Below are positions 5,054-19,752 of a stretch of 20,961 bases of DNA, piece after piece; within the stretch, counting starts at the first letter, position 1; the number at the start of each line of letters is the position of its first letter. The position numbers and the translations under genes are program-made. The stretch is from a virus. Where the stretch lies: positions 1 to 20,961 of the IMG/VR virus record IMGVR_UViG_3300009285_007969, one strand, 5' to 3'. The notes beneath the pieces were generated by a model. The model was given only the letters and a program-made list of their open reading frames with translations, did not search any database and was not told where the DNA came from.

Positions 5054-5809
5054 ATGCCCATCGAAATTCAGAAGCCGCTAAAGAAATTGCTCCCCTATCT
5101 TCTCAAAGCCCAAGAGGACAGCTTGAACGAGGCGGACACGGTCCAGCGTCTGACAAAGGTATTCGAGGATGTGCTGGGCTACAACCCCATGACCGAGGTC
5201 ACTCGTGAGATGCAGGTCAAGGACAAGTATGTCGACATTACCATCAAGGCGGATGATACGATCAGGTTTCTTGTGGAAGCGAAGGCGGCCGGCGTAACGC
5301 TGCGCGAGCGGCACATTGATCAGGCTGAGCGCTATGCTGCCGAAGGCAACATTCCCTGGGTAATCCTGACGAACGGCGTGCATTGGCATCTATATCATCT
5401 GACGTTTGACGAGGGCATCGAGTATGAGGAGGTCTTCGAGGTTGACTTAGCGACCGACCCGATGGATCGGGTCGTTGAGTGCTTCACGTTGCTGCATCGC
5501 CAATCGGTACGGGGCAAGGCATTAGAGTCGTTCTGGGAACAACATACAGCGCTCAGCCCGGAGTCGATCGGACGCGCGCTATTCGCCGAGGACACGCTCG
5601 GGTTCATCCGGCGCAATATCCGGCGGCAGGACGGCATCTTGATCGACGTGGAAGACCTGGCAGGGGCAATTCATGCAATGTTTTCCAATGAAGCGCGGGA
5701 GAAAATTGGACCAGTGCGCATTCGGCGCCGCCGGCGGGCCCGGGTGGCCAAGGAAGCGCCAGTGGATCCGGCAGCGGCAGCTGGCGGGAAAGATGCCACC
5801 GCTCAATAG
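5054..5809 (+). CDS. PD-(D/E)XK nuclease-like protein (HsdR N-terminal-domain type)
   Basis: 251 residues, with GGGAGGGG just upstream of the ATG. Residues ~20-120 match the type I restriction subunit R N-terminal domain (HSDR_N_2-like): NEADTVQRLTKVFEDVLGY, then Asp61 (YVDITI), Glu75-Ala-Lys77 (FLVEAKAAG), then Gln90-x3-Tyr94 (DQAERYA) and WVILTNGVHWHLY. These are the D, ExK and QxxxY elements of the nuclease core. The remainder (~120-251) is helical and ends in a basic and Ala/Pro-rich tail. No methyltransferase, specificity subunit or helicase motor is present, so it is not a complete restriction system. Placed in the repressor operon, it may act in host takeover, exclusion of other phages or DNA repair; family match is firm, role is inference. 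Confidence 0.8.
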   Translation: MPIEIQKPLKKLLPYLLKAQEDSLNEADTVQRLTKVFEDVLGYNPMTEVTREMQVKDKYVDITIKADDTIRFLVEAKAAGVTLRERHIDQAERYAAEGNIPWVILTNGVHWHLYHLTFDEGIEYEEVFEVDLATDPMDRVVECFTLLHRQSVRGKALESFWEQHTALSPESIGRALFAEDTLGFIRRNIRRQDGILIDVEDLAGAIHAMFSNEAREKIGPVRIRRRRRARVAKEAPVDPAAAAGGKDATAQ

Positions 5810-7943: not shown

Positions 7944-9447
7944 GCTGGAACGCGAGCGCCGACGGCGCTCGGGCGCGCCGGTCCATCACTCGGGCGCCTA
8001 TCGCACCTTTCAAACGACATACCGCGGCGATCCAGTCGCCTTCGTGCATGACTGCCTGATCTGGCCCAAGGGCAAAGGGCCGGCGGATTATCAGGATAAA
8101 GCGCTGGCGGCGCTGGCGGCCTATTTGCGCCTGAGCCTGCGCGGACCGCACGGCCTGGGAAAAAGCGCCCTAGCGTCCTGGAGCGTGCTGTGGTTCGCGC
8201 TGACCCGCGACGGCGGTGACTGGAAGCTGCCCACCACGGCCAGCGTCTGGCGGCAGCTGGATAAGTTCCTGTGGCCGGAGATCCGCAAGTGGGCGCGCAA
8301 GCTGCGCTGGGACAAGATCGGCCGCGCGCCCTTCGATGAGCGCAGCGAGCTGATGATGCTCAGCCTGAAACTGGCCACCGGCGAGGCCTTTGCGCTGGCG
8401 AGCGACAAGGCGGAACTCATGGAAGGGGCGCACGCGGACCACCTGCTTTATCTGCTGGACGAGTCGAAGACCATCCCGGCGGATACGTTCGACGTGGTGG
8501 AGGGCGCTTTCAGCAACGCCGGCGGGAATGCGCCGGGCGAGGCGCTGGCGCTGTCGATCTCGACGCCGGGCGAGCCGCAGGGCCGGTTCTACGACATCCA
8601 GAGCCGCAAGCCCGGATACGAGGACTGGCACGTCATTCACGTCACGCTCGAGGACGCCATCCGGGCAGGCCGCATCAGCCGGGATTGGGCCGCCCAGCGC
8701 AAGAAGCAATGGGGCGAAGACAGCCCGGTGTACCAGAACCGGGTGCTGGGTGAATTCGCGGCCAGCGATGAGGACGGCGTCATCCCGCTCTCATGGGTGG
8801 AGACGGCCAACGAGCGCTGGCAGGACTGGGTGCGCGGCGGCAAGCGCGGCATGTTCAAGTGCGTGGGGGTGGATGTGGCCTACACCGGCCAGGACAAGAC
8901 GGTCCTGGCGCCGCGTTTCGACAATATCATCGCCGAGCTGCGCCGGTCGTCGAAGGAAGTGACGACGGCCACGACCGGACGGGTGGCGGGCATCCTGAAG
9001 GCGCACGGCGGATATGCGGTGGTGGACGTGATCGGGTATGGCGCGGGCGTGGTCGACCAGCTGCGTGAGCAGGATTACCCGGTGGTGGCGTTCGTGGCCG
9101 GCGGGCGCACGGACAAGCTGGATCGCTCGGGGGAGCTGGGCTTTGCGAATGTGCGCAGCGCGGCCTGGTGGAATCTGCGCGAGATGCTGGACCCGGAGAA
9201 TGAGCTGGGCGTGGGCCTGCCGCCGGACGATTTGTTGACGGGCGACCTGACGGCGCCGCACTGGCGGGTGATGAGCGGCGGCAAGATTCAGGTCGAGAGC
9301 AAGGATGAGTTGAAGCCGCGCCTGGGGCGTTCGACGGATGACGGCGACGCCGTGGTGCAGGCCTTCTGGGATACGGGCCCGAGCGGTGACTGGAGCAACG
9401 TGCAGGATCTCGGGCACGTCGAGGAGTTCAAAAGCCGATGGGCATGA
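7897..9447 (+). CDS. terL: terminase large subunit (ATPase and nuclease)
   Basis: 516 residues. Walker A at ~83-90 (GPHGLGKS), Walker B at ~184-189 (LYLLDE, with the catalytic Glu), then a C-terminal RNase H-like nuclease with Asp326 (GVDVAYTGQDKT), Asp377 (VVDVIGYG) and a C-terminal acidic cluster Asp481/482/484 (STDDGDAV). It drives ATP-powered DNA packaging into the prohead and cuts concatemers. Length is normal. The start at 7897 overlaps the small subunit by 47 nt; a weak ribosome site makes the exact start uncertain. The next gene overlaps its end by 10 nt. Confidence 0.93.
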   Translation: MMNSPSSSENLLLRIRLERERRRRSGAPVHHSGAYRTFQTTYRGDPVAFVHDCLIWPKGKGPADYQDKALAALAAYLRLSLRGPHGLGKSALASWSVLWFALTRDGGDWKLPTTASVWRQLDKFLWPEIRKWARKLRWDKIGRAPFDERSELMMLSLKLATGEAFALASDKAELMEGAHADHLLYLLDESKTIPADTFDVVEGAFSNAGGNAPGEALALSISTPGEPQGRFYDIQSRKPGYEDWHVIHVTLEDAIRAGRISRDWAAQRKKQWGEDSPVYQNRVLGEFAASDEDGVIPLSWVETANERWQDWVRGGKRGMFKCVGVDVAYTGQDKTVLAPRFDNIIAELRRSSKEVTTATTGRVAGILKAHGGYAVVDVIGYGAGVVDQLREQDYPVVAFVAGGRTDKLDRSGELGFANVRSAAWWNLREMLDPENELGVGLPPDDLLTGDLTAPHWRVMSGGKIQVESKDELKPRLGRSTDDGDAVVQAFWDTGPSGDWSNVQDLGHVEEFKSRWA

Positions 9448-10928
9448 AAATTGCCGCCACGGGCGGCTCCAAAGCAACAGGAACAGCGGCCTCGGCCGGC
9501 AGCAACGGCCAGAAGCAATCGCCGGCGCCGGCCCGGGCGGGCGAGTTCGAGGAGATAGGCACGTTGGGAATGGGCGTCCTGAGCGGATATATCCAGTCCG
9601 CCTATAACGCCGAGCTCTACTGGCCCACGGTCTATCCCCTGTACAACCGCCTGCGCCGCAGCGACCCAGAGATCTCCGTGGTGCGCCAGGTGTTCTCGGC
9701 CATCGCCGCCGGCATCCGGCTGGAATTCCAGCTCGACGCTGAGAAGCCCAGCGATGACGACAAGCGGGCGCAGGAGTTCGGCCAGGGGGTGCTGGCGGAG
9801 ATTGAAGGCGGGCCCGAGAACTTTGTCGACACGCTGGTCAGCCAGGTGCCGTTCATGGGCTGGGGCTGGTGGAACGTGGTGCCCGGCCTGCGGCGCAAGG
9901 GCTGGCGCCCGCCCGACCAGGAAGATCCGTGGCGCTCGAGCGCCGACGATGGCCTGATTGGGATCCGCCGACTGGCCTGGCGCGATCATTCGTCGTTCTA
10001 CAACTGGGACATCGACGACGCCACCGGCCGCGTGCGCGGCATGAAGCAGCTCGATACCCCCAACCCCTTTGAGACCATTCCCCTTGACCGCAGCGTCCAT
10101 ATCACCTTTGGCGATTCGTCCAATCCGGAGGGCCTGACTCCGCTCGAGGCGGTCTGGCGTCTGGAACGGATCAAGTACGGCCTGGAAGTGGTGCAGGGTA
10201 TCGGCTACGAGCACGCAGCCGGGTATCTGGACATCAAGTCGGACAAGGACAAGCTGACCGCTGACGACAAGACAAACATCAAGGCGGCCGCGCGCGCGAT
10301 TATGACCGCCCAGGAGGGCAACTATGCCGCCTGGCCGGCCGGGCTGACCGGGGAGCTCAAGGACGTGCCCTTCAGCGCCGCCGCGAGCATTCTGGAGGCG
10401 GTGCGCTACTACGGCCTGCTCAAGCTGGCGCTGTACAACATGCAGTGGGTCGGACTCTCGACGATCTCAGACACCGGCTCATTTGCGGCCATGCAGGACA
10501 GCACGGCGATGTGGATCGTGTCCTTCAATGCCATGATGCGCGGCTTCGTGCGCCAACTGGACAGCCAGTTCGGGCGGCGGCTGTTCGAGTGGAACCGCGA
10601 GGCCTTCCCGGGGATGACCCAGCGGCCGCGGCTGGTGGCCACGCCGGTGGAGAAGTTCATGGATCTGGGCGACCTGGGGACGTTCCTGCAGGCGGTCATC
10701 GCGGTGTCGATGCCGCTGGGCGATGAGGACTATCTGGCGATCCGCAAGCGCAGCGGCATTCTGCCCGAGACGCTGCCGACCGCGGCCGCCGGCCGGCCGC
10801 CGGCGCGCGCTTCGGGCCAGTCGGTGAAGGCTGACCAGGGCGCTGCGCAGGACAAGCTGGGCGAGATGGGGCGGCTGGCCGATTCCATCGACAAGGCAAC
10901 GGCGGAGCTGAAGAGGGCGCGTCGATGA
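9438..10928 (+). CDS. portal protein
   Basis: 496 residues. Low-complexity start (~1-35), then the portal-type body: PLYNRLRRSDPEISVVRQVF, a tryptophan-rich wing (GWGWWNVVPG), HITFGDSSNPEGLTPLEAVW, a long helix after LERIKYGLEVVQGIGYEH, and GLSTISDTGSFAAMQDST leading into the C-terminal crown. The arrangement resembles the Mu gp29/DUF935-type portals. It forms the dodecameric ring through which DNA is packaged and to which the tail joins. Position between large terminase and the MuF-like gene agrees. ATGs at 9438 and 9444 are both possible starts. The C-terminal ~40 residues are Ala/Lys-rich and helical. Confidence 0.85.
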   Translation: MGMKIAATGGSKATGTAASAGSNGQKQSPAPARAGEFEEIGTLGMGVLSGYIQSAYNAELYWPTVYPLYNRLRRSDPEISVVRQVFSAIAAGIRLEFQLDAEKPSDDDKRAQEFGQGVLAEIEGGPENFVDTLVSQVPFMGWGWWNVVPGLRRKGWRPPDQEDPWRSSADDGLIGIRRLAWRDHSSFYNWDIDDATGRVRGMKQLDTPNPFETIPLDRSVHITFGDSSNPEGLTPLEAVWRLERIKYGLEVVQGIGYEHAAGYLDIKSDKDKLTADDKTNIKAAARAIMTAQEGNYAAWPAGLTGELKDVPFSAAASILEAVRYYGLLKLALYNMQWVGLSTISDTGSFAAMQDSTAMWIVSFNAMMRGFVRQLDSQFGRRLFEWNREAFPGMTQRPRLVATPVEKFMDLGDLGTFLQAVIAVSMPLGDEDYLAIRKRSGILPETLPTAAAGRPPARASGQSVKADQGAAQDKLGEMGRLADSIDKATAELKRARR

Positions 10929-11870: not shown

Positions 11871-11961
11871 GACGGCGAAGTAAGAACCGCATATCTACCG
11901 CGTCTTGCGAAAGCTGGCCGGGCCGACTCTCATCCGAGAGTCTGGCCCGGCTTTTTTGTTT
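11871..11961 (+). ncRNA. leader RNA or attenuator between promoter and protease gene
   Basis: A transcript from about 11877 would run ~35 nt of open sequence and then form the 15-bp terminator at 11917-11951, so an ~80-nt RNA is expected unless polymerase is modified. No ATG occurs in it. A TTG at 11905 is in frame with the protease but lacks a ribosome site. Whether it is an attenuator, an antitermination leader or a stable small RNA is undetermined. Confidence 0.45.
11917..11957 (+). terminator. strong intrinsic terminator inside the late operon
   Basis: GCCGGGCC/GGCCCGGC (11917-11924/11944-11951) plus GACTCTC/GAGAGTC (11925-11931/11936-11942) with one bulged base, followed by TTTTTT. It lies directly before the protease-scaffold-capsid genes, all transcribed in the same direction. 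Confidence 0.85.
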
Positions 11962-13302
11962 ATGCCAAAACCCGTTCAGATCTTCTTCACCGAACTCACC
12001 GCTGACGCCCTGGCCGCCGGCCGCGCTTTCGACGGGCTGGCCACGGGCACCTTCCGCGACATGCACGGGCGCGATGTGACGTTCACCCCGGAAGAGCTGG
12101 ACACCTACCTGGCCAACACCCAGGCGGCGATTGCGGCGACCAAGGCCGAGAGCGGCGAACTGGTGGGCCTGCCGATCGACGCGCGGGACCACGACAAGGG
12201 CGACGGCGCCGGCTGGATCGTGGGGGTGCAGCGCGCCGGCAACCTGCTGCGGCTGGTCCCCAAGTGGACCGAAGTCGGGCGGGAGCTGATCGGCAAGGGT
12301 ATCCGCCGCTTCTTCTCGGCCACCGTGGACACCCTGAACAAGGTCATCCTGGGCGGCACGCTGACCAACTGGCCGGCCACGCGCGATGCACAGGGCAAGG
12401 TGCTGCTGCGCCCGATCGAACTGGCGCAGGCGCTCTACGAGCTGCAGGACGAAAGCCTGGACGCGCAAACCATGAAAGTGCGCCAGGCATTCTACGACTC
12501 GATGGGCGAGCCGCTGGAGCAGCCGTGGATCAAGGAAGTGTTCGCCGACTACGTGATTGTCTGCGCTGGCGAGCGCATGTTCCGGGTGGACTACAGCCAG
12601 GCGGGCGAGGACGTGAAGTTCGCCGACCGGTCGGCCTGGGTCGAAGTCAAGCCGGCCTACGTCGAAGCCATGCAGTATCTGCCCAAAGCCGTCCGCAGTG
12701 TCCTGTACAAGTTTATCGGCGCGGCCCCGGCAGCCGCCAATTCCCCCGCAGGAGAAACGATCATGACCATCAAACTGAGCGATTTGAGCGCCGCTGACCG
12801 CGCCGAGCTGGCCAAGCAGGTGGCGACCCAGCTCGTTCCGGCCGGCAACGGCGAGCCGCCGGCGGAACTCAAGCCGCTGGCTGAGGCCCTGCTGACCCAG
12901 GCGCGGGTTGAGGCCCAGAAGGAATTCCAACTGCAGCTCGAGCGGGCCCGGCGCGAGTCGGCCGTGGCTGAGCTGTGCACCCGCGTGGCCGGCGGCAGCG
13001 CCGAGGCTCCGCGCGGCATCAAGGGCGTCAAGGCCGACGAGCTGCAGAAGCGGCTGCTGGCCCTGGACGCCGAGGCCTACACCTACTTCAGCGGCCTGCT
13101 GGAGGGAGTGGTGAAGGACGGCCTGGTGGAGTTCACCGAGCTGGGCCACGGCAAGCACCTGGACGGCACGATCGAGCTGCCGGTGGAGGTGGCCGAGAAG
13201 CTCGACGCCGGCGTCTTCAAGCTGGCGGACCTGACCAGCCCGATCCTGGCGTTGGGCGATCTGAAGCAATACGACCTGTCCAAGTGGCAGGAAAAGAAAT
13301 AG
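11962..13302 (+). CDS. prohead protease (Mu I-like) with fused scaffold region
   Basis: 446 residues from the ATG at 11962. Residues ~1-150 match the Mu I-type prohead protease: LVGLPIDARDHDKGDGAGWI (His77), LVPKWTEVGRELI, then RRFFSATVD (Ser119) and GGTLTNWPA. Residues ~268-446 are charged and helical like a scaffold: LSAADRAELAKQVATQ, then a long coiled region around FQLQLERARRESAVAEL. Proteases of this kind cleave scaffold and themselves during prohead maturation. The start is uncertain because only a T-rich terminator tail precedes it and no ribosome site is visible. A TTG at 11905 would add 19 residues encoded through the hairpin and is less likely. A strong internal start (12763) is listed separately. 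Confidence 0.8.
   Translation: MPKPVQIFFTELTADALAAGRAFDGLATGTFRDMHGRDVTFTPEELDTYLANTQAAIAATKAESGELVGLPIDARDHDKGDGAGWIVGVQRAGNLLRLVPKWTEVGRELIGKGIRRFFSATVDTLNKVILGGTLTNWPATRDAQGKVLLRPIELAQALYELQDESLDAQTMKVRQAFYDSMGEPLEQPWIKEVFADYVIVCAGERMFRVDYSQAGEDVKFADRSAWVEVKPAYVEAMQYLPKAVRSVLYKFIGAAPAAANSPAGETIMTIKLSDLSAADRAELAKQVATQLVPAGNGEPPAELKPLAEALLTQARVEAQKEFQLQLERARRESAVAELCTRVAGGSAEAPRGIKGVKADELQKRLLALDAEAYTYFSGLLEGVVKDGLVEFTELGHGKHLDGTIELPVEVAEKLDAGVFKLADLTSPILALGDLKQYDLSKWQEKK
12763..13302 (+). CDS. nested in-frame scaffold protein
   Basis: An ATG at 12763, in frame within the protease gene, has GGAG 8 nt upstream, whereas the full-length start lacks a ribosome site. It would give a 179-residue protein beginning MTIKLSDLSAADRAELAK, exactly the scaffold-like part. 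Phages lambda (Nu3 in C) and Mu make scaffold from an in-frame internal start of the protease gene, so this arrangement is known in principle; its use here is inferred from the ribosome site. Expression of many scaffold copies per protease copy would follow. Confidence 0.6.
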   Translation: MTIKLSDLSAADRAELAKQVATQLVPAGNGEPPAELKPLAEALLTQARVEAQKEFQLQLERARRESAVAELCTRVAGGSAEAPRGIKGVKADELQKRLLALDAEAYTYFSGLLEGVVKDGLVEFTELGHGKHLDGTIELPVEVAEKLDAGVFKLADLTSPILALGDLKQYDLSKWQEKK

Positions 13303-13347: not shown

Positions 13348-13845
13348 ATGGCCGTTTTGACTTCTGACCGCCAGCGCCCGGTCCGCATTCCGGCGGGCGG
13401 CCTGACAACCGCCGAGCTCAAGCTGGCGGGCTACACCAACTTCGCTGGCGGCTCGGCCGCGCACACCGTGTACAAAGGCTCGCTGGTCATCTGCGACGTC
13501 TCAGACACGGACGGCTACTTCCGCGCGGCGCCGCTGACCTCGTCCACCAACGCCGCTTCCGGCGACATCTCGGGCGGTGTGGCGGCCGAGCAGGTGGCCG
13601 TGGGCAGCGCCGACACGGCGGACGGCTCCAAGAAGGTGACCGTCTATCGCAACGGCGTGTGGGGCTTCCCGGTGGGCGGCTGCGCCATCACCGACATCGG
13701 CGCGGCGGCCTACGCCAGCGACGACCAGACCATCACGCCCACCAGCACCAACAACTTCTTCGTGGGTTACATCGAGGACGTGGATGCCACCTACGTGTGG
13801 GTGAACATCGAGCGCGCCTTCATGCGCCCGACCTCGGCGGCCTAA
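13348..13845 (+). CDS. head decoration (capsid cement) protein
   Basis: 165 residues, with AAGGAG 7-8 nt before the ATG. The protein is Gly/Ala/Thr-rich and strand-rich: TVYKGSLVICDVSDTDGYF, ASGDISGGVAAEQVAVG, VWGFPVGGCAITDIGAAAYA, NNFFVGYIEDVDATYVWVNI. The pattern of short strands and 'G..AY..D...T' resembles capsid cement proteins of the DUF2190 kind, which stabilise the shell after expansion. Position directly before the major capsid gene agrees. The assignment is by pattern and context. Confidence 0.7.
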   Translation: MAVLTSDRQRPVRIPAGGLTTAELKLAGYTNFAGGSAAHTVYKGSLVICDVSDTDGYFRAAPLTSSTNAASGDISGGVAAEQVAVGSADTADGSKKVTVYRNGVWGFPVGGCAITDIGAAAYASDDQTITPTSTNNFFVGYIEDVDATYVWVNIERAFMRPTSAA

Positions 13846-13877: not shown

Positions 13878-14846
13878 ATGATTACGCGATCTGATGTCCT
13901 GGCCCACCTCGAGCGCGGCATGCGCGTGGGCTTCCTGGCAGGCAAGCAGCAATACGTCCCGCAGCGGTCCGCCTTCACGAGCGAACCGTCCAGCGACGGC
14001 GCCTTCGAGATCTACGGCGACCTGGGCGCAGTACCCTGGCCGGCGCAGACCGGCGGGCAGGGCGGCGGCGGCACCGACGGCCGCACCGGCCAGCCGAGCG
14101 TGGGCGGGCTGCACGAAGGCGGCCCGATCACCGTCCTGGGCGGCAACGAGAAGGGCCTGGTGGTCTACAACCAGGACTGGACCGTGCCGATCGGGATCTA
14201 CCACAACGCCATCAACGACAACCGCGTGGGCGGGCTGGAAGAGTGGGCCCGCAGCGCCGGCGCGCGCTTCGAGCAGCACAAGGATTACCTGGCCTTCAAC
14301 GCCTTGAACGCCGGCGAGGCGACCACGACCTACGGCGCCGCCTACGACACGCTGGCATTCTTCAGCGCCAGCCACGTGGACAAGGCGGCCGAGTACCAGA
14401 CCGTCCAGTCCAACCTGAACACCTTGGGCCTGTCGCTCGACAACTTCGAGACCGTGCGCGTGGCGGCGGCGAAGTTGAGGGACGACCGCGGCCAGCCGAT
14501 GGGGCTCAACCACAAGCTGCTGATCCACGCGATTGACCTGGAGCGCACGGCGGCCCAGATCACCGACAACGTGGAGGACTACGGCACGACCAATCGCGCG
14601 CGCAATCCCTACGCCGGGCAGATCCTGCGCCTGGCCGCGCCGGGCGGCTGGCTGGACACCACGGCCTGGTTCCTGGTCGACCCAACCATGCCGCAGAAGC
14701 CGATCATGCTGCAGGTGCGCGAAGCGCCGCAGCTGGTCTTCTGGGACGATCACTCCCAGGGCGCGGGTATCCGCTACTACAAATGGCTGGCGCGCTATGC
14801 GGCCGCCTACGGCGACTGGCGCCTGTGCGTGCAGGGCAACAGCTAG
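13878..14846 (+). CDS. major capsid protein (Mu gpT-like)
   Basis: 322 residues, with AAAGGAG upstream of the ATG. Start MITRSDVLAHLERGMRVGF, then an E-loop-like region (FEIYGDLGAVPWP, glycine-rich loop), VVYNQDWTVPIGIYHNAIND, a spine helix (LEEWARSAGARFEQHKDYLA), FFSASHVDKAAEY and the P-domain-like end (LVDPTMPQKPIMLQVREAPQ, WLARYAAAYGDWRL). This order is that of the Mu-type gpT capsid within the HK97 fold. Length is near the family norm. A stable hairpin follows at 14866-14896. Confidence 0.88.
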   Translation: MITRSDVLAHLERGMRVGFLAGKQQYVPQRSAFTSEPSSDGAFEIYGDLGAVPWPAQTGGQGGGGTDGRTGQPSVGGLHEGGPITVLGGNEKGLVVYNQDWTVPIGIYHNAINDNRVGGLEEWARSAGARFEQHKDYLAFNALNAGEATTTYGAAYDTLAFFSASHVDKAAEYQTVQSNLNTLGLSLDNFETVRVAAAKLRDDRGQPMGLNHKLLIHAIDLERTAAQITDNVEDYGTTNRARNPYAGQILRLAAPGGWLDTTAWFLVDPTMPQKPIMLQVREAPQLVFWDDHSQGAGIRYYKWLARYAAAYGDWRLCVQGNS

Positions 14847-14922: not shown

Positions 14923-15891
14923 ATGAAGAAATTCCTGAACGCGCCGCTGTCCAACGTCGTCAGCCTCATCGCCTGCGTGGCGCTGGTGCTGGCCACGCTC
15001 TACGGCGGGCTGATGCACGGCGAGCTGGCGCCGCTGACCCTGGGCGGGGTGACCGCCGGCGCTTCGAATCTGACCATCCTGCAGGTGGGCAACGGCACGG
15101 CCAGCATCCCGTCGCTGTCGTTCACCAGCGACACCGACACCGGCCTGTACCGCGTCGGGGCGAACAACGTCGGCCTGGCCATCGGCGGGACGAAGATCCT
15201 GGACGTGGCATCCACCGGGCTGGCCGTAACCGGCACTCTCTCGTCTTCGGGGGCTTTCACGGCTACTGGCGCTTTGGATGTAAACAGCACCTCGACCATC
15301 TCCGGCACGATGACCTTCGACGGGACCGGTGACCTGGACCTGAGCACCAACATCGTCGAGAACATCGGCAACGCCGGAACCGACTTTGACACGAATGGCG
15401 GACTGACGCTGGCCGGGCCGCTCGACCTGAACAGCACATCGACGGTCTCCGGAACGATGACGTTCAACGGCACCGGCACGCTCGATCTGGGCGCGAACGT
15501 GATCAGCAACGTCGGCAACTCTGGTACTGATTTCGACGCGAGTGGCGGGCTGACGCTGGCGAGCGGTGTGACGATCTCGAACGGCAATCTGCGGGTCAAT
15601 GATCTGCTGATCGTGGATCTGCCGGCCACGCTGACGGTGACCACGGTCATCACGCCGAGCCAGACCTTCCTGCCCATCAGTTCTGCCGGGCCGGTGTCGC
15701 CGACGATTACCGCGACCGGAGTGCAGACCGGCACGGTGCTGTACATCTGGAATGCCGGTTCCCAGAACATCCAACTGACCGATACCGGCACACAGGTGCA
15801 GGCGGGCGACTTTGTGATGGGCGCCAACGACCTGATCGAGTTCATTTTCGATGGGACGAACTGGCTGGAGCTCGCCCGGTCCAACAACTAG
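14923..15891 (+). CDS. membrane-anchored, repetitive fibre-like protein
   Basis: 322 residues. A basic head and hydrophobic segment at ~8-30 (VVSLIACVALVLATLYGGL) look like a signal or membrane anchor. The body is Thr/Ser/Gly/Asn-rich and strand-forming: PSLSFTSDTDTGLYRVGANN at ~63-82 is a motif familiar from phage tail-fibre and spike proteins. Two adjacent copies of a ~49-residue unit follow (~122-170 and ~171-219; 'STSTISGTMTF' versus 'STSTVSGTMTF', and 'GTDFDTNGGLTLA' versus 'GTDFDASGGLTLA'). The C-terminal domain (~225-322) is also strand-rich. It is likely a surface fibre or head decoration. A secretion-type N-terminus on a virion-module protein is odd. The stop codon directly abuts the next GTG start. 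Confidence 0.68.
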   Translation: MKKFLNAPLSNVVSLIACVALVLATLYGGLMHGELAPLTLGGVTAGASNLTILQVGNGTASIPSLSFTSDTDTGLYRVGANNVGLAIGGTKILDVASTGLAVTGTLSSSGAFTATGALDVNSTSTISGTMTFDGTGDLDLSTNIVENIGNAGTDFDTNGGLTLAGPLDLNSTSTVSGTMTFNGTGTLDLGANVISNVGNSGTDFDASGGLTLASGVTISNGNLRVNDLLIVDLPATLTVTTVITPSQTFLPISSAGPVSPTITATGVQTGTVLYIWNAGSQNIQLTDTGTQVQAGDFVMGANDLIEFIFDGTNWLELARSNN

Positions 15892-16458
15892 GTGAAGCGC
15901 TTCTGCCTGTCAGCCGAGAGCTTTGCGCGGTCGGCGGCGGTGCTGGCGGGCGTCCGGCCGCTTACATCGCCGCCGATTACTTTAGCAACCTTCGACCCGC
16001 GCCTGCTGGACGGTCAGGACCTGGTGACGTTCAAGCTGCACGGACTGGACGGACAGCCGTACTGGTACGGCGACGGCGGAATCACCGCCTGCAGCGCCGA
16101 CCAGCTGGCCCAGGCCAGGCTGCCCGGCGCCCTGGTGTTCGTGGCCAACTGCTGGGGCGGGGCCCAGTCGCCGATGATCCAGGCGCTGCTCGCGGCCGGG
16201 GCGGCGGCGATCGTGACGGGCGAAGGCCTGAACTTCGCCGGGGTCCGGCAGATCGACGGCGCCGACGTGCTGGGGTACGTCTGGCGGCACATGGTGGAAC
16301 TGGGCTTCGACGCGGAGACGGGACTGCGCCTGGGGAAGATCATGGCCCGCTACCGCCGGCCGCGCCTGAAGGCCGACATCGCGTCGTTCGGGCTGATCGG
16401 CAACCCGGCGGCCAAGTTGCGAAAGGAAAACGACTATGTGGGCACAAGTGAAAGCTGA
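15892..16458 (+). CDS. caspase/CHAT-like (clan CD peptidase-fold) protein
   Basis: 188 residues from a GTG that abuts the preceding TAG. LVTFKLHGLDGQPYWYG at ~44-60 gives a hydrophobic strand ending in His50-Gly51. GALVFVANCWGGAQSPMIQA at ~79-98 gives the second strand ending in Cys87. ALLAAGAAAIVTGEG follows, and near the C-terminus FGLIGNPAAKL (~166-176) corresponds to the 'lfGDPalrL' end of CHAT and C25-type domains. His-Gly and Cys after parallel strands is the clan CD catalytic dyad; the 37-residue spacing is acceptable for that clan. No prodomain or signal peptide is visible. Family members are cysteine peptidases cutting after defined P1 residues. Role in a virion module is unknown: virion maturation, host cleavage and a non-catalytic scaffold are all possible. 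Confidence 0.62.
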   Translation: MKRFCLSAESFARSAAVLAGVRPLTSPPITLATFDPRLLDGQDLVTFKLHGLDGQPYWYGDGGITACSADQLAQARLPGALVFVANCWGGAQSPMIQALLAAGAAAIVTGEGLNFAGVRQIDGADVLGYVWRHMVELGFDAETGLRLGKIMARYRRPRLKADIASFGLIGNPAAKLRKENDYVGTSES

Positions 16459-16684
16459 CAGCCGCCTGGGGATCATCACCGCCTGCAGCGGCTGCGAGTT
16501 TGTGAAGTACGAACCGCGGCGCGTGCCGGCCGGCTTCGAGGGCGAGGCCGAGCGCAACCCCTACCTGGATCTGGTGGCTGAACCCCTGGCGGCCCCGGCG
16601 CCCGGCATGTCCACGGACATGGCTGAGCTGGCACCGCGGGGGAAGGGCAAGGGCAAGGCCCGGGACGAGGAGAAGAGCGAATGA
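16436..16684 (+). CDS. small hypothetical protein of the head accessory cluster
   Basis: 82 residues, with AAAGGA 8 nt before the ATG at 16436, overlapping the caspase-like gene by 23 nt. An N-terminal ACSGCEF pair of cysteines (Cys17, Cys20) is followed by KYEPRRVPAGFEGEAERNPY, and the tail is Lys/Gly/Glu-rich and probably disordered. No family is recognised. Overlap and a good ribosome site suggest co-expression with its upstream neighbour. Confidence 0.6.
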   Translation: MWAQVKADSRLGIITACSGCEFVKYEPRRVPAGFEGEAERNPYLDLVAEPLAAPAPGMSTDMAELAPRGKGKGKARDEEKSE

Positions 16685-17067
16685 ACCTGGTCGGGCCGCT
16701 CAGCTCCGGCGCCGCCGTGGGCAATGCCGGCGTGGCCACGGCCAACGCCGACAGCACCAGCGTCATCAGCGGCACCCTGGTGGCGCTGTACGTCAAATAC
16801 AACGATTCGCCGCCGGGCGCGACGACCGACATCGCCATCACCACCAAGGGCGCGACGCCGTACGCGCCGGCCCAGACCCTGCTGGCGGTGGCCAACGCCG
16901 CCACCGACAAATGGTTCTATCCGCGCGCGCTGACCCAGGTGAACACGACCGGCGCCGACATTGCCGGGGCCTACGAAGCGATGCCGGTCCACGACCTGGT
17001 CAACGTGAAGATCGACCAGGCCAACGCCGGCGACAGCATCCAGGTGTGGCTGCTGCTGGACGACTGA
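16681..17067 (+). CDS. small strand-rich virion protein
   Basis: 128 residues starting on an ATGA overlap. Alternating hydrophobic strands: VISGTLVALYVKYNDSPPGA, TDIAITTKGATPY, DKWFYPRALTQV, LVNVKIDQANAGDSIQVWLL. I recall this 'G.lvalyv.Y...pp..tDi.i' pattern in small phage structural proteins between capsid and adaptor genes; it looks like a beta-sandwich. Precise role (head decoration or neck) is unknown. Confidence 0.6.
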   Translation: MNLVGPLSSGAAVGNAGVATANADSTSVISGTLVALYVKYNDSPPGATTDIAITTKGATPYAPAQTLLAVANAATDKWFYPRALTQVNTTGADIAGAYEAMPVHDLVNVKIDQANAGDSIQVWLLLDD

Positions 17068-17586
17068 ATGACCGTCAGCGCGAATTCCTACGGAACGGCG
17101 GCGGGCGTGGCGGCTCTGGTGCCGCTGCGCGCCAGCGGCACCGGCGATAGCGTCAACTTCACGTCTTCGACCCGGCCGACCATCACCCAGGTCGAGGCGC
17201 AGATCGACCAGATCAGCGCTCTGGTGAACGCCATGCTGGCCGAGGCCGGCTTCTCGATCCCGGTCAGCCAGGCCAGCGGCGTGCTGCTGCTGACGCAGTT
17301 TGTGCAGCAGGAAGTGGCGGCGATCGTCGAGGGCATCAACGGCAGCGGCCGTTTCGGCCCGACTGCCAAACAGGTGGGCGGCCGCGGGCGCTTCGCCGTG
17401 CTGGTGGAGGACGCGCACGAGTTTATCGAGGTCCACAAGGTGGGCCTGGAACGGCTGGGGGCCACGCGCAGCACGAGCGTTTCGAGCGGCATCGCCTACC
17501 GCGACACGGACGAGGGCGGGGACGACACCTTCCCCATTTTCCAGCGGGACGCCTTCGGCAACGAGTTCGACGACTGGGGCAGCTGA
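17068..17586 (+). CDS. head-tail adaptor (connector) protein
   Basis: 172 residues, directly abutting the previous stop. The start resembles head-tail connector proteins of siphophages: YGTAAGVAALVPLR, STRPTITQVEAQIDQISALV, NAMLAEAGFSIPV, then helices (LTQFVQQEVAAIVEGING). Connectors of this class bind below the portal and receive the tail. Position directly before the gp10-like and tail terminator genes agrees. The C-terminal ~40 residues are acidic and loop-like. Confidence 0.7.
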   Translation: MTVSANSYGTAAGVAALVPLRASGTGDSVNFTSSTRPTITQVEAQIDQISALVNAMLAEAGFSIPVSQASGVLLLTQFVQQEVAAIVEGINGSGRFGPTAKQVGGRGRFAVLVEDAHEFIEVHKVGLERLGATRSTSVSSGIAYRDTDEGGDDTFPIFQRDAFGNEFDDWGS

Positions 17587-18534: not shown

Positions 18535-19278
18535 GTGACGGGCAAGAACAAGAGTCTGCGCTGGACGCGGGTGCTCGTGGGGGGCTACGACATTTCCGGC
18601 GACGCGCGCACCTTCAACACCCTGCTCAACAACTGGGACGAAGCCGATCTGACCGGCATCAGCAACGCCGTGCGCAACGGGCTGCCCGGCTCGGCCCGGC
18701 GCACGGGGGCGCAGGGACTGCAGGCGCTGCTGAACGACACGGCCAGCAGCGGCGCGCATGCCATTCTGAAGAGCGCCAATCATTCCGACCGGCTGAGCGT
18801 GCTGTTTGGCGGCGGGGCCGAGCCGGCGGCGGGCGACGCCGCCTACCTGCTGCGCTCCATTCAGCTCAGCGACCCGCGCGGCTTTGACGCGCTGGCGGCG
18901 GTGCTGACGGCCGATTTCTTTCCGGACGCGTCGCAGTTCGACGCCTCGGCCGAGGATCCGCTGGGCCTGGTGCTGCACCCGGCCACGTCGCTGGCCGCCA
19001 CCACCAACGGCGCGAGCATCGACAACGGCGCGGCCACGACCAAGGGCGCGCACGCCAACCTGCACGTCCTGGCCTCCAGCGGCGGCACCTGGGCCTTCAC
19101 CGTCGAGCACAGCGTCAACGGCATCGCCTGGGCCACGCTGCTGACCTTCACGATCAACGGCAGCGCCATTACCAGCGAGGCGCAGGCGGCCAGCGGCACG
19201 GTCAATCAATACACCCGGTTTGTGGCCACACGCACCAGCGGCACGGTGACGCCGGTGTGCGTCCTGGCGCGCAACTAA
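18535..19278 (+). CDS. major tail tube protein with extra C-terminal beta domain
   Basis: 247 residues from a GTG at 18535 with GAGGAG about 8 nt upstream. N-terminal ~1-130 is tube-like: YDISGDARTFN, EADLTGISNAVRNGLPGSA, LSVLFGGGAEPAAG. The C-terminal ~145-247 is a separate strand-rich domain (NLHVLASSGGTWAFTVEHS, NGIAWATLLTFTINGSA, VNQYTRFVATRTSGTVTPV), like surface domains displayed by siphophage tubes. It shares the N-terminal motif with the next gene. Together they are the probable tube subunits. Confidence 0.7.
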   Translation: MTGKNKSLRWTRVLVGGYDISGDARTFNTLLNNWDEADLTGISNAVRNGLPGSARRTGAQGLQALLNDTASSGAHAILKSANHSDRLSVLFGGGAEPAAGDAAYLLRSIQLSDPRGFDALAAVLTADFFPDASQFDASAEDPLGLVLHPATSLAATTNGASIDNGAATTKGAHANLHVLASSGGTWAFTVEHSVNGIAWATLLTFTINGSAITSEAQAASGTVNQYTRFVATRTSGTVTPVCVLARN

Positions 19279-19290
19279 AGGAGAACGGCA

Positions 19291-19752
19291 ATGGCAGGCA
19301 AAAACAAAGTCGAACGTGCGTTCCGTTTGTGGTGGGATGACCTGGGCACCGGCTCGGGCACCGCCCGCGATCTGAGCGGCGACCTGGTGCCGGGGAGCGT
19401 TTCCGGCGGCGGGCTGGTCTATGACGAGGTGGATCTCACCGGCGTCAGCAATGCCGTGCGCAATTTCCTGGCCGGCCACGCCGACAGCGAGATCGCCGCC
19501 CGCTTCCACCTGAACGACATGGGCACCACCGGCGCGTTCACCGTCCTGACCGGCAGCGATGGCGGGGTGGGCACGCTGACCCTGCAGTGGGGCAGTTCCG
19601 GGGCTGCGCCCGCCACGAACGATCCGGAATGGGAAGGCGAGTACGTGCTGCTGCAGTGCGACGTGGTGCTGGACGGCAACAAGCCGGTGCTGCAGGCCAA
19701 GTGGAAACCGCAGGCCGGGCAGAGCGCGCCCGCCTGGGGCACGGTGGCGTGA
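19291..19752 (+). CDS. second tail tube-like protein (paralogue)
   Basis: 153 residues, with AAGGAG 7 nt before the ATG. It starts MAGKNKVERAFRLWWDDL and carries YDEVDLTGVSNAVRNFLAG, closely matching EADLTGISNAVRNGLPGS of the previous gene, so the two are tandem paralogues. It lacks the other protein's extra C-terminal domain. Strands TGAFTVLTGSDGGVGTLTLQ and YVLLQCDVVLDGN fit a tube fold. One may be the tube and the other a minor tube or tail terminator form. Confidence 0.7.
   Translation: MAGKNKVERAFRLWWDDLGTGSGTARDLSGDLVPGSVSGGGLVYDEVDLTGVSNAVRNFLAGHADSEIAARFHLNDMGTTGAFTVLTGSDGGVGTLTLQWGSSGAAPATNDPEWEGEYVLLQCDVVLDGNKPVLQAKWKPQAGQSAPAWGTVA

Follow-up and report, generated by a model that had tools for sequence, protein, structure and literature searches.

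A predicted single-domain clan CD peptidase related to family C25 is encoded beside a membrane-anchored fibre-like protein in a phage head module

Introduction

What is a caspase-like peptidase doing among the head genes of a phage? The question is raised by a 20,961-base virus record (IMG/VR IMGVR_UViG_3300009285_007969), taken here over its whole length and referred to as the window, in which the open reading frame (ORF) at 15892–16458 (+ strand) encodes a protein of 188 amino acids. An earlier note, made from the sequence alone, had assigned this protein to the caspase/CHAT/C25 fold, with a histidine (His50, in KLHG) and a cysteine (Cys87, in ANCWGG) as candidate catalytic residues, and had offered three roles for it: processing of the neighbouring fibre, interference with host defence or delivery with the virion. 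Peptidases of clan CD are built on a caspase-type sheet of six strands with helices on both sides, and in caspases an extra β section lies between the two catalytic residues (PMC4357240). PorU is a C25-type enzyme by which surface proteins are cleaved and attached to a new anchor (PMC4560394, PMC8545088).

Results

The structure of the protein was predicted with AlphaFold2 (AF2). A model from five sequences gave a predicted local distance difference test score (pLDDT) of 82.6 and a predicted template modelling score (pTM) of 0.84; with 29 sequences these values were 93.6 and 0.90 (pLDDT of the five models, 92.9–93.6). The model contains strands at residues 3–8, 24–26, 44–48, 81–84, 106–110 and 166–170, plus helices, with His50 placed after strand 44–48 and Cys87 after strand 81–84, and with a small additional β section (57–59, 65–68) between them. 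The ‘FGLIG’ of the C-terminal FGLIGNPAAKL lies on the last strand, 166–170, so that the arrangement read earlier from the letters, in which His and Cys each end a hydrophobic strand and a helix and this motif follow, is reproduced in the model.

Foldseek searches against the PDB gave SAVED-CHAT (9.1e-6), the gingipain RgpB (1.3e-5) and TPR-CHAT (4.4e-5), together with caspase-8, separase and Csx29. Nearly all matches with E < 0.001 are named as clan CD or CHAT proteins, the sole exception by name being the anti-sigma factor DdvA, and the five-sequence model gave the same picture. Query-normalised TM-scores of ∼0.5–0.67 are in the range expected for distant relatives. A structure search of BFVD returned no viral match below 0.001. 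As modelled, the protein shows a sheet of caspase type flanked on each side by helices, with first the His and then the Cys of the dyad at the ends of core strands and a glycine beside the histidine, and the structural matches extend across the clan. We regard a genuine clan CD fold with an intact dyad, as first proposed in the earlier note, as close to certain.

Homologues were collected by scanning viral contigs repeatedly, with an alignment that was enlarged from round to round. The peptidase-based scans yielded 28 loci (numbered below with the prefix L), a scan with the major head protein added further loci, and two stand-alone copies were found in Chloroflexota genomes (L005, in an Anaerolineales metagenome-assembled genome, and L016, in G012). 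The phage peptidases are ∼160–230 amino acids long. His50 and Cys87, the residues singled out at the start, are identical in all 35 distinct homologues of the phage family, and Gly51, adjoining the catalytic histidine, is kept in 34. Of the two results that the earlier note had named as refuting its assignment, a model without the caspase core and homologues devoid of both residues, neither was obtained. Since this identity extends to distant members (the most divergent, e.g. L056 and L058, are ∼28–35% identical to the window protein), the two motifs are not chance occurrences. Pairwise ratios of nonsynonymous to synonymous substitution rates (dN/dS) are ∼0.15–0.4 among phage pairs; the family is under purifying selection and the ORF is real.

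No model in Pfam, NCBIfam, PADLOC or PHROGs recognises the peptidase, and a tblastn search of INPHARED gave no phage with a significant match. None of 13 phage members compared with Pfam matches PF01364 (Peptidase_C25), phage members likewise match neither PF12770 (CHAT) nor the caspase (C14) family models, and the same 13 gave nothing below E 0.2 against PHROGs, head maturation protease families included. Sequence searches of the PDB returned cellobiose dehydrogenase for the single protein, judged a chance match, and only apparent repeat-protein artefacts for the combined profile A5; solved structures are therefore linked to the protein through Foldseek and through the Pfam bridge described below. 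The lack of direct family matches could speak for motifs that arose by chance in an ORF that is spurious or unrelated, an explanation refuted by the 35 homologues, the purifying selection, the confident model and the structural and profile matches to clan CD, and to which we attach virtually no probability.

The bridge was provided by bacterial proteins. The phage profile finds matches in 31 of 400 Chloroflexota genomes. Except for the two stand-alone copies, the matching proteins are larger, most having 800–1000 amino acids; L009, for example, combines tetratricopeptide repeats (TPR) with a Pfam Peptidase_C25 match (E 6.7e-13). Among 19 extracted bacterial domains, 16 match PF01364 and just three match PF12770 (best 0.0036). 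Alignment of the phage family with the Chloroflexota TPR-C25 domains by hhalign (99.8%, E 7.7e-28, 180 columns) superimposes His and Cys and sets FGLIGNPAAKL opposite ‘FVLYGDPLAV’, in agreement with the ‘GDPalrL’-like ending suspected in the earlier note. The shared catalytic subdomain comprises an SPP segment, LHG, W-Y-G, the cysteine, an ADLLG helix and the F..YGDP end strand. On this profile evidence, the phage protein is homologous to the C25 catalytic subdomain by way of TPR-C25 and then PF01364, and Peptidase_C25-type domains are its nearest cellular relatives among the three families first named.

Only the C-terminal catalytic subdomain is represented in the phage protein, which begins at that subdomain's first strand. 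Unlike the TPR-C25 proteins, it has neither TPR repeats nor the N-terminal half; the G-D-P part of the C-terminal motif is lost in most other phage members; and E-A-C has become A-N-C in most, the residue two before the catalytic cysteine being mostly Glu in bacteria (SEAC) and mostly Ala in phages, which suggests that substrate preference may differ between the two groups. In a tree, the phage and bacterial sets fall on opposite sides of one branch (support 100/100). Because the defining features of C25, a PF01364 match and the N-terminal subdomain, are absent, the window protein is a clan CD, C25-like peptidase that stands outside C25 proper.

Several of the bacterial TPR-C25-like proteins are natural pseudo-peptidases in which the cysteine is replaced (L022, L029, L030 and L037) and, in L022, the histidine also. 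As the phage family has kept both residues in every homologue while these relatives lost theirs, its members are, judged by sequence, quite probably active peptidases. Such pseudo-enzymes, and the reduction of the phage form to a catalytic subdomain, would nevertheless suit a non-catalytic role, in which the caspase-fold protein would bind the fibre or the membrane as a chaperone, an assembly factor or a dominant-negative decoy of host TPR-C25 proteins. Binding alone would not select for both His and Cys down to 28% identity, and we consider a silent binder improbable.

Six host TPR-C25 loci were sampled (L094–L099). Their neighbours encode another long TPR protein or look like housekeeping genes, and no obvious defence context was seen at these six loci when judged by eye. 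In several of the regions the TPR-C25 gene is beside or near a very long TPR protein (∼950–1550 amino acids), which suggests a two-gene chromosomal unit.

The phage peptidase gene has a constant neighbour. In the window its GTG start follows immediately 3′ of the stop codon of a fibre-like gene, and in every locus with usable flanks the peptidase adjoins such a gene, L049 being cut by a contig end and L016 having no upstream flank. The order is fibre–peptidase in most loci. In the five with the order peptidase–fibre (L048, L050, L052, L056 and L058), the peptidase start lies at most ∼20 bases from the end of the major head protein gene, and the peptidase gene overlaps the start of the fibre gene. 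Overlaps of four bases between the two genes are frequent; the widest gap is 287 bases (L006). In L086 a change of frame interrupts the upstream fibre gene; for L080, L085 and L088 the upstream fibre-like protein is known from its C-terminal part only. Furthermore, the pair has other locations: in L013 it follows the portal gene, and in L091 it precedes the major head protein. Because the position changes while the pairing stays, the pairing appears to reflect function rather than inherited order.

Kept through these changes, the adjacency would be unneeded by an enzyme directed at the host, that is, one packaged and ejected with the virion, or made late, and acting on a host protein in takeover, lysis timing or counter-defence, with the fibre gene a mere neighbour. 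A location in the head operon does fit the packaging of ejected proteins. The presumed host phylum, moreover, supplies the closest cellular relatives, bacterial TPR-C25 proteins, whose partners the phage enzyme could cut or compete with. Given also the lack of an obvious defence context at the six host loci, a host-directed role seems to us unlikely, though deserving of attention.

A single N-terminal hydrophobic segment was present in all 12 fibre-like proteins of the first set (KD19 1.8–3.0), and a membrane helix or a lipobox (e.g. LVGC in L013, LIGC in L011) was found at the N-terminus wherever the start could be read. To our knowledge, such a helix or lipoprotein signal is unusual for the fibres of tailed phages. 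After the anchor, the fibre-like proteins (14923–15891 and counterparts in L001–L093) carry a short conserved segment of the EEPVAR-S or DEIVALGTTHF type. These segments were considered as a fibre-specific cleavage motif (EEPVAR-S in the L079–L093 group, DEIVALGTTHF in others) and rejected, similar juxtamembrane segments being present in phages that have no peptidase (L062). In one subgroup (L016, L079, L080, L085–L087 and L092) the gene just 3′ of the peptidase encodes a further protein with a membrane or lipid anchor, which in most cases has ‘PVAR’ soon after the helix (e.g. ‘PVARSVENYGW’), so that anchored proteins with a common juxtamembrane motif lie on both sides of the peptidase. Small helix-hairpin-helix-like repeat proteins (‘IAGVGPKTAQKLHDL’) were observed beside the fibre–peptidase pair in L003 (4388–4855), L004 (4072–4641), L006 (4138–4602) and L010 (6522–6941).

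The features of the window are collected in Table 1. The gene order runs from the terminase subunits through the portal, the Mu I-like protease/scaffold candidate, a head protein and the Mu gpT-like major head protein to the fibre-like gene and the peptidase, and then to two small conserved genes, the first sharing 23 bases with the 3′ end of the peptidase gene, a probable connector and a major tail protein. This order places the peptidase gene within the head module, and the fibre-like and head-tail neighbours named in the earlier note are those found.

Table 1. Coordinates of the peptidase gene, its catalytic codons and neighbouring genes in the window.
Feature	Position	Strand	Evidence
Portal protein	9438–10928	+	phrog_113, E 3.6e-11
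Probable head maturation protease/scaffold, Mu I-like (weak); separate prohead protease candidate	11905–13302	+	PF10123, E 0.006; phrog_976, E 0.016
Virion structural (head) protein, 5′ of major head protein	13348–13845	+	phrog_1731, E 5.4e-13
Major head protein, Mu gpT-like	13878–14846	+	PF10124, E 4.6e-19; phrog_371, E 1.3e-25
Fibre-like protein; one N-terminal transmembrane segment (hydrophobic from residue 12), C-terminal β-sandwich like Phage_depo_C; candidate partner/substrate	14923–15891	+	
Predicted single-domain clan CD (C25/CHAT-like) cysteine peptidase, 188 amino acids	15892–16458	+	AF2 model; Foldseek; hhalign to C25 domains; 35 homologues
Codon of His50 (LHG, end of strand 44–48), predicted catalytic	16039–16041	+	Conserved in 35/35 (Gly51 in 34/35); structure
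Codon of Cys87 (NCW, end of strand 81–84), predicted catalytic	16150–16152	+	Conserved in 35/35; structure
Small conserved protein overlapping 3′ end of peptidase gene	16436–16684	+	Synteny in L001, L005, L053 and L058
Small ‘YNDSPP..TTD’-type protein	16681–17067	+	Downstream synteny in many relatives
Probable head-tail connector	17068–17586	+	Position and syntenic conservation only; no profile match

A position beside the major head protein is also that expected of a prohead (head maturation) protease, and in this respect the two resemble each other. Phage prohead proteases are serine/herpesvirus-type or ClpP-like enzymes, whereas a clan CD peptidase has another fold and chemistry. The window has a separate candidate, if a weak one, before the major head protein; L003 carries a fused protease–major head protein as well as the peptidase; and many phages whose major head protein belongs to the same family lack the peptidase. 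Identity with the prohead protease was consequently rejected as very improbable.

Elsewhere in the window, the early gene at 5054–5809 matches phrog_17239 (E 6.9e-45; function unknown) with weak similarity to endonucleases. The products of two adjacent genes of the tail region (18535–19278 and 19291–19752) both open with ‘GKNK’ and ‘LSGD’ and are possibly a duplicated major tail protein.

Discussion

The reading that we prefer, while holding it to be somewhat short of an even chance, is that a stand-alone clan CD peptidase, closest to the C25 catalytic subdomain of the gingipain/PorU type, uses its His50–Cys87 dyad to process or re-anchor the neighbouring fibre. The adjacency of the genes suggests, equally tentatively, that the fibre-like protein is substrate or partner of the peptidase, and among the roles proposed at the outset it is fibre processing that gains indirect support from this strict adjacency. 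The peptidase would probably be a late product of the head operon and coupled to the fibre-like protein next to it, which would be held in the membrane by its N-terminal helix or, in some relatives, by a lipoprotein signal. The peptidase would recognise this protein and either cut it or move it to another anchor, much as PorU, the C25-type sortase of type IX secretion, may serve as a model by analogy (PMC4560394, PMC8545088). In this way the fibre would be freed from the membrane, or brought to the mature form needed on the particle or the cell surface.

Several observations weigh against fibre processing. The peptidase has no signal peptide, and a cytoplasmic enzyme would therefore reach only the short N-terminal tail of an anchored fibre before lysis, a difficulty that would be removed if cleavage took place after lysis, in the virion or on fibre not yet inserted. 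At least six related phages (L046, L054, L061, L062, L067 and L069) have no peptidase, although a fibre-like gene follows a major head protein gene of the same family, so that the peptidase would serve the fibre in some phages only and cleavage would not be universally required. The adjacency could in part be inherited head-module synteny. Moreover, as the acidic residue two before the cysteine is mostly Ala in the phage family, specificity is not transferable from the bacterial relatives.

A more specific form of fibre processing is a two-gene module in which a single-domain C25-like peptidase cuts, and/or re-attaches in the manner of a sortase, a membrane- or lipid-anchored fibre of the same operon, for display or release of the fibre through the host envelope. 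We think this proposal rather improbable as it stands, and we know of no such peptidase–fibre module in tailed phages.

Compared with known systems, the His-Gly and the Cys that follow two core strands are arranged like those of RgpB in its caspase-like C-terminal subdomain (PMC4357240), whereas the N-terminal subdomain, the signal or pro-peptide and the Pfam match of RgpB are missing. The CHAT proteases Csx29/TPR-CHAT and SAVED-CHAT belong to the same clan and are among the best structural matches (9e-6 to 6e-4). They serve in defence and are controlled by RNA or cyclic nucleotide; the phage peptidase has no domains for such control. Caspase-8 is a weaker match (3e-4) than RgpB and CHAT.

Among open-licence papers, no earlier report was found on phage caspase, C25 or CHAT proteins, nor any description of a clan CD peptidase as part of a phage head operon. 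What is new is the minimal form in which a known peptidase clan occurs here and its genomic setting, with a defined gene as partner; the peptidase is covered by no curated family. Being a caspase-fold enzyme of very small size, it could be used as a minimal model for clan CD. That it is strictly paired with a fibre-like protein anchored in the membrane leads to a concrete, testable claim about fibre maturation or display in some phages, probably of Chloroflexota, and would add a new type of protease to phage assembly or host interaction.
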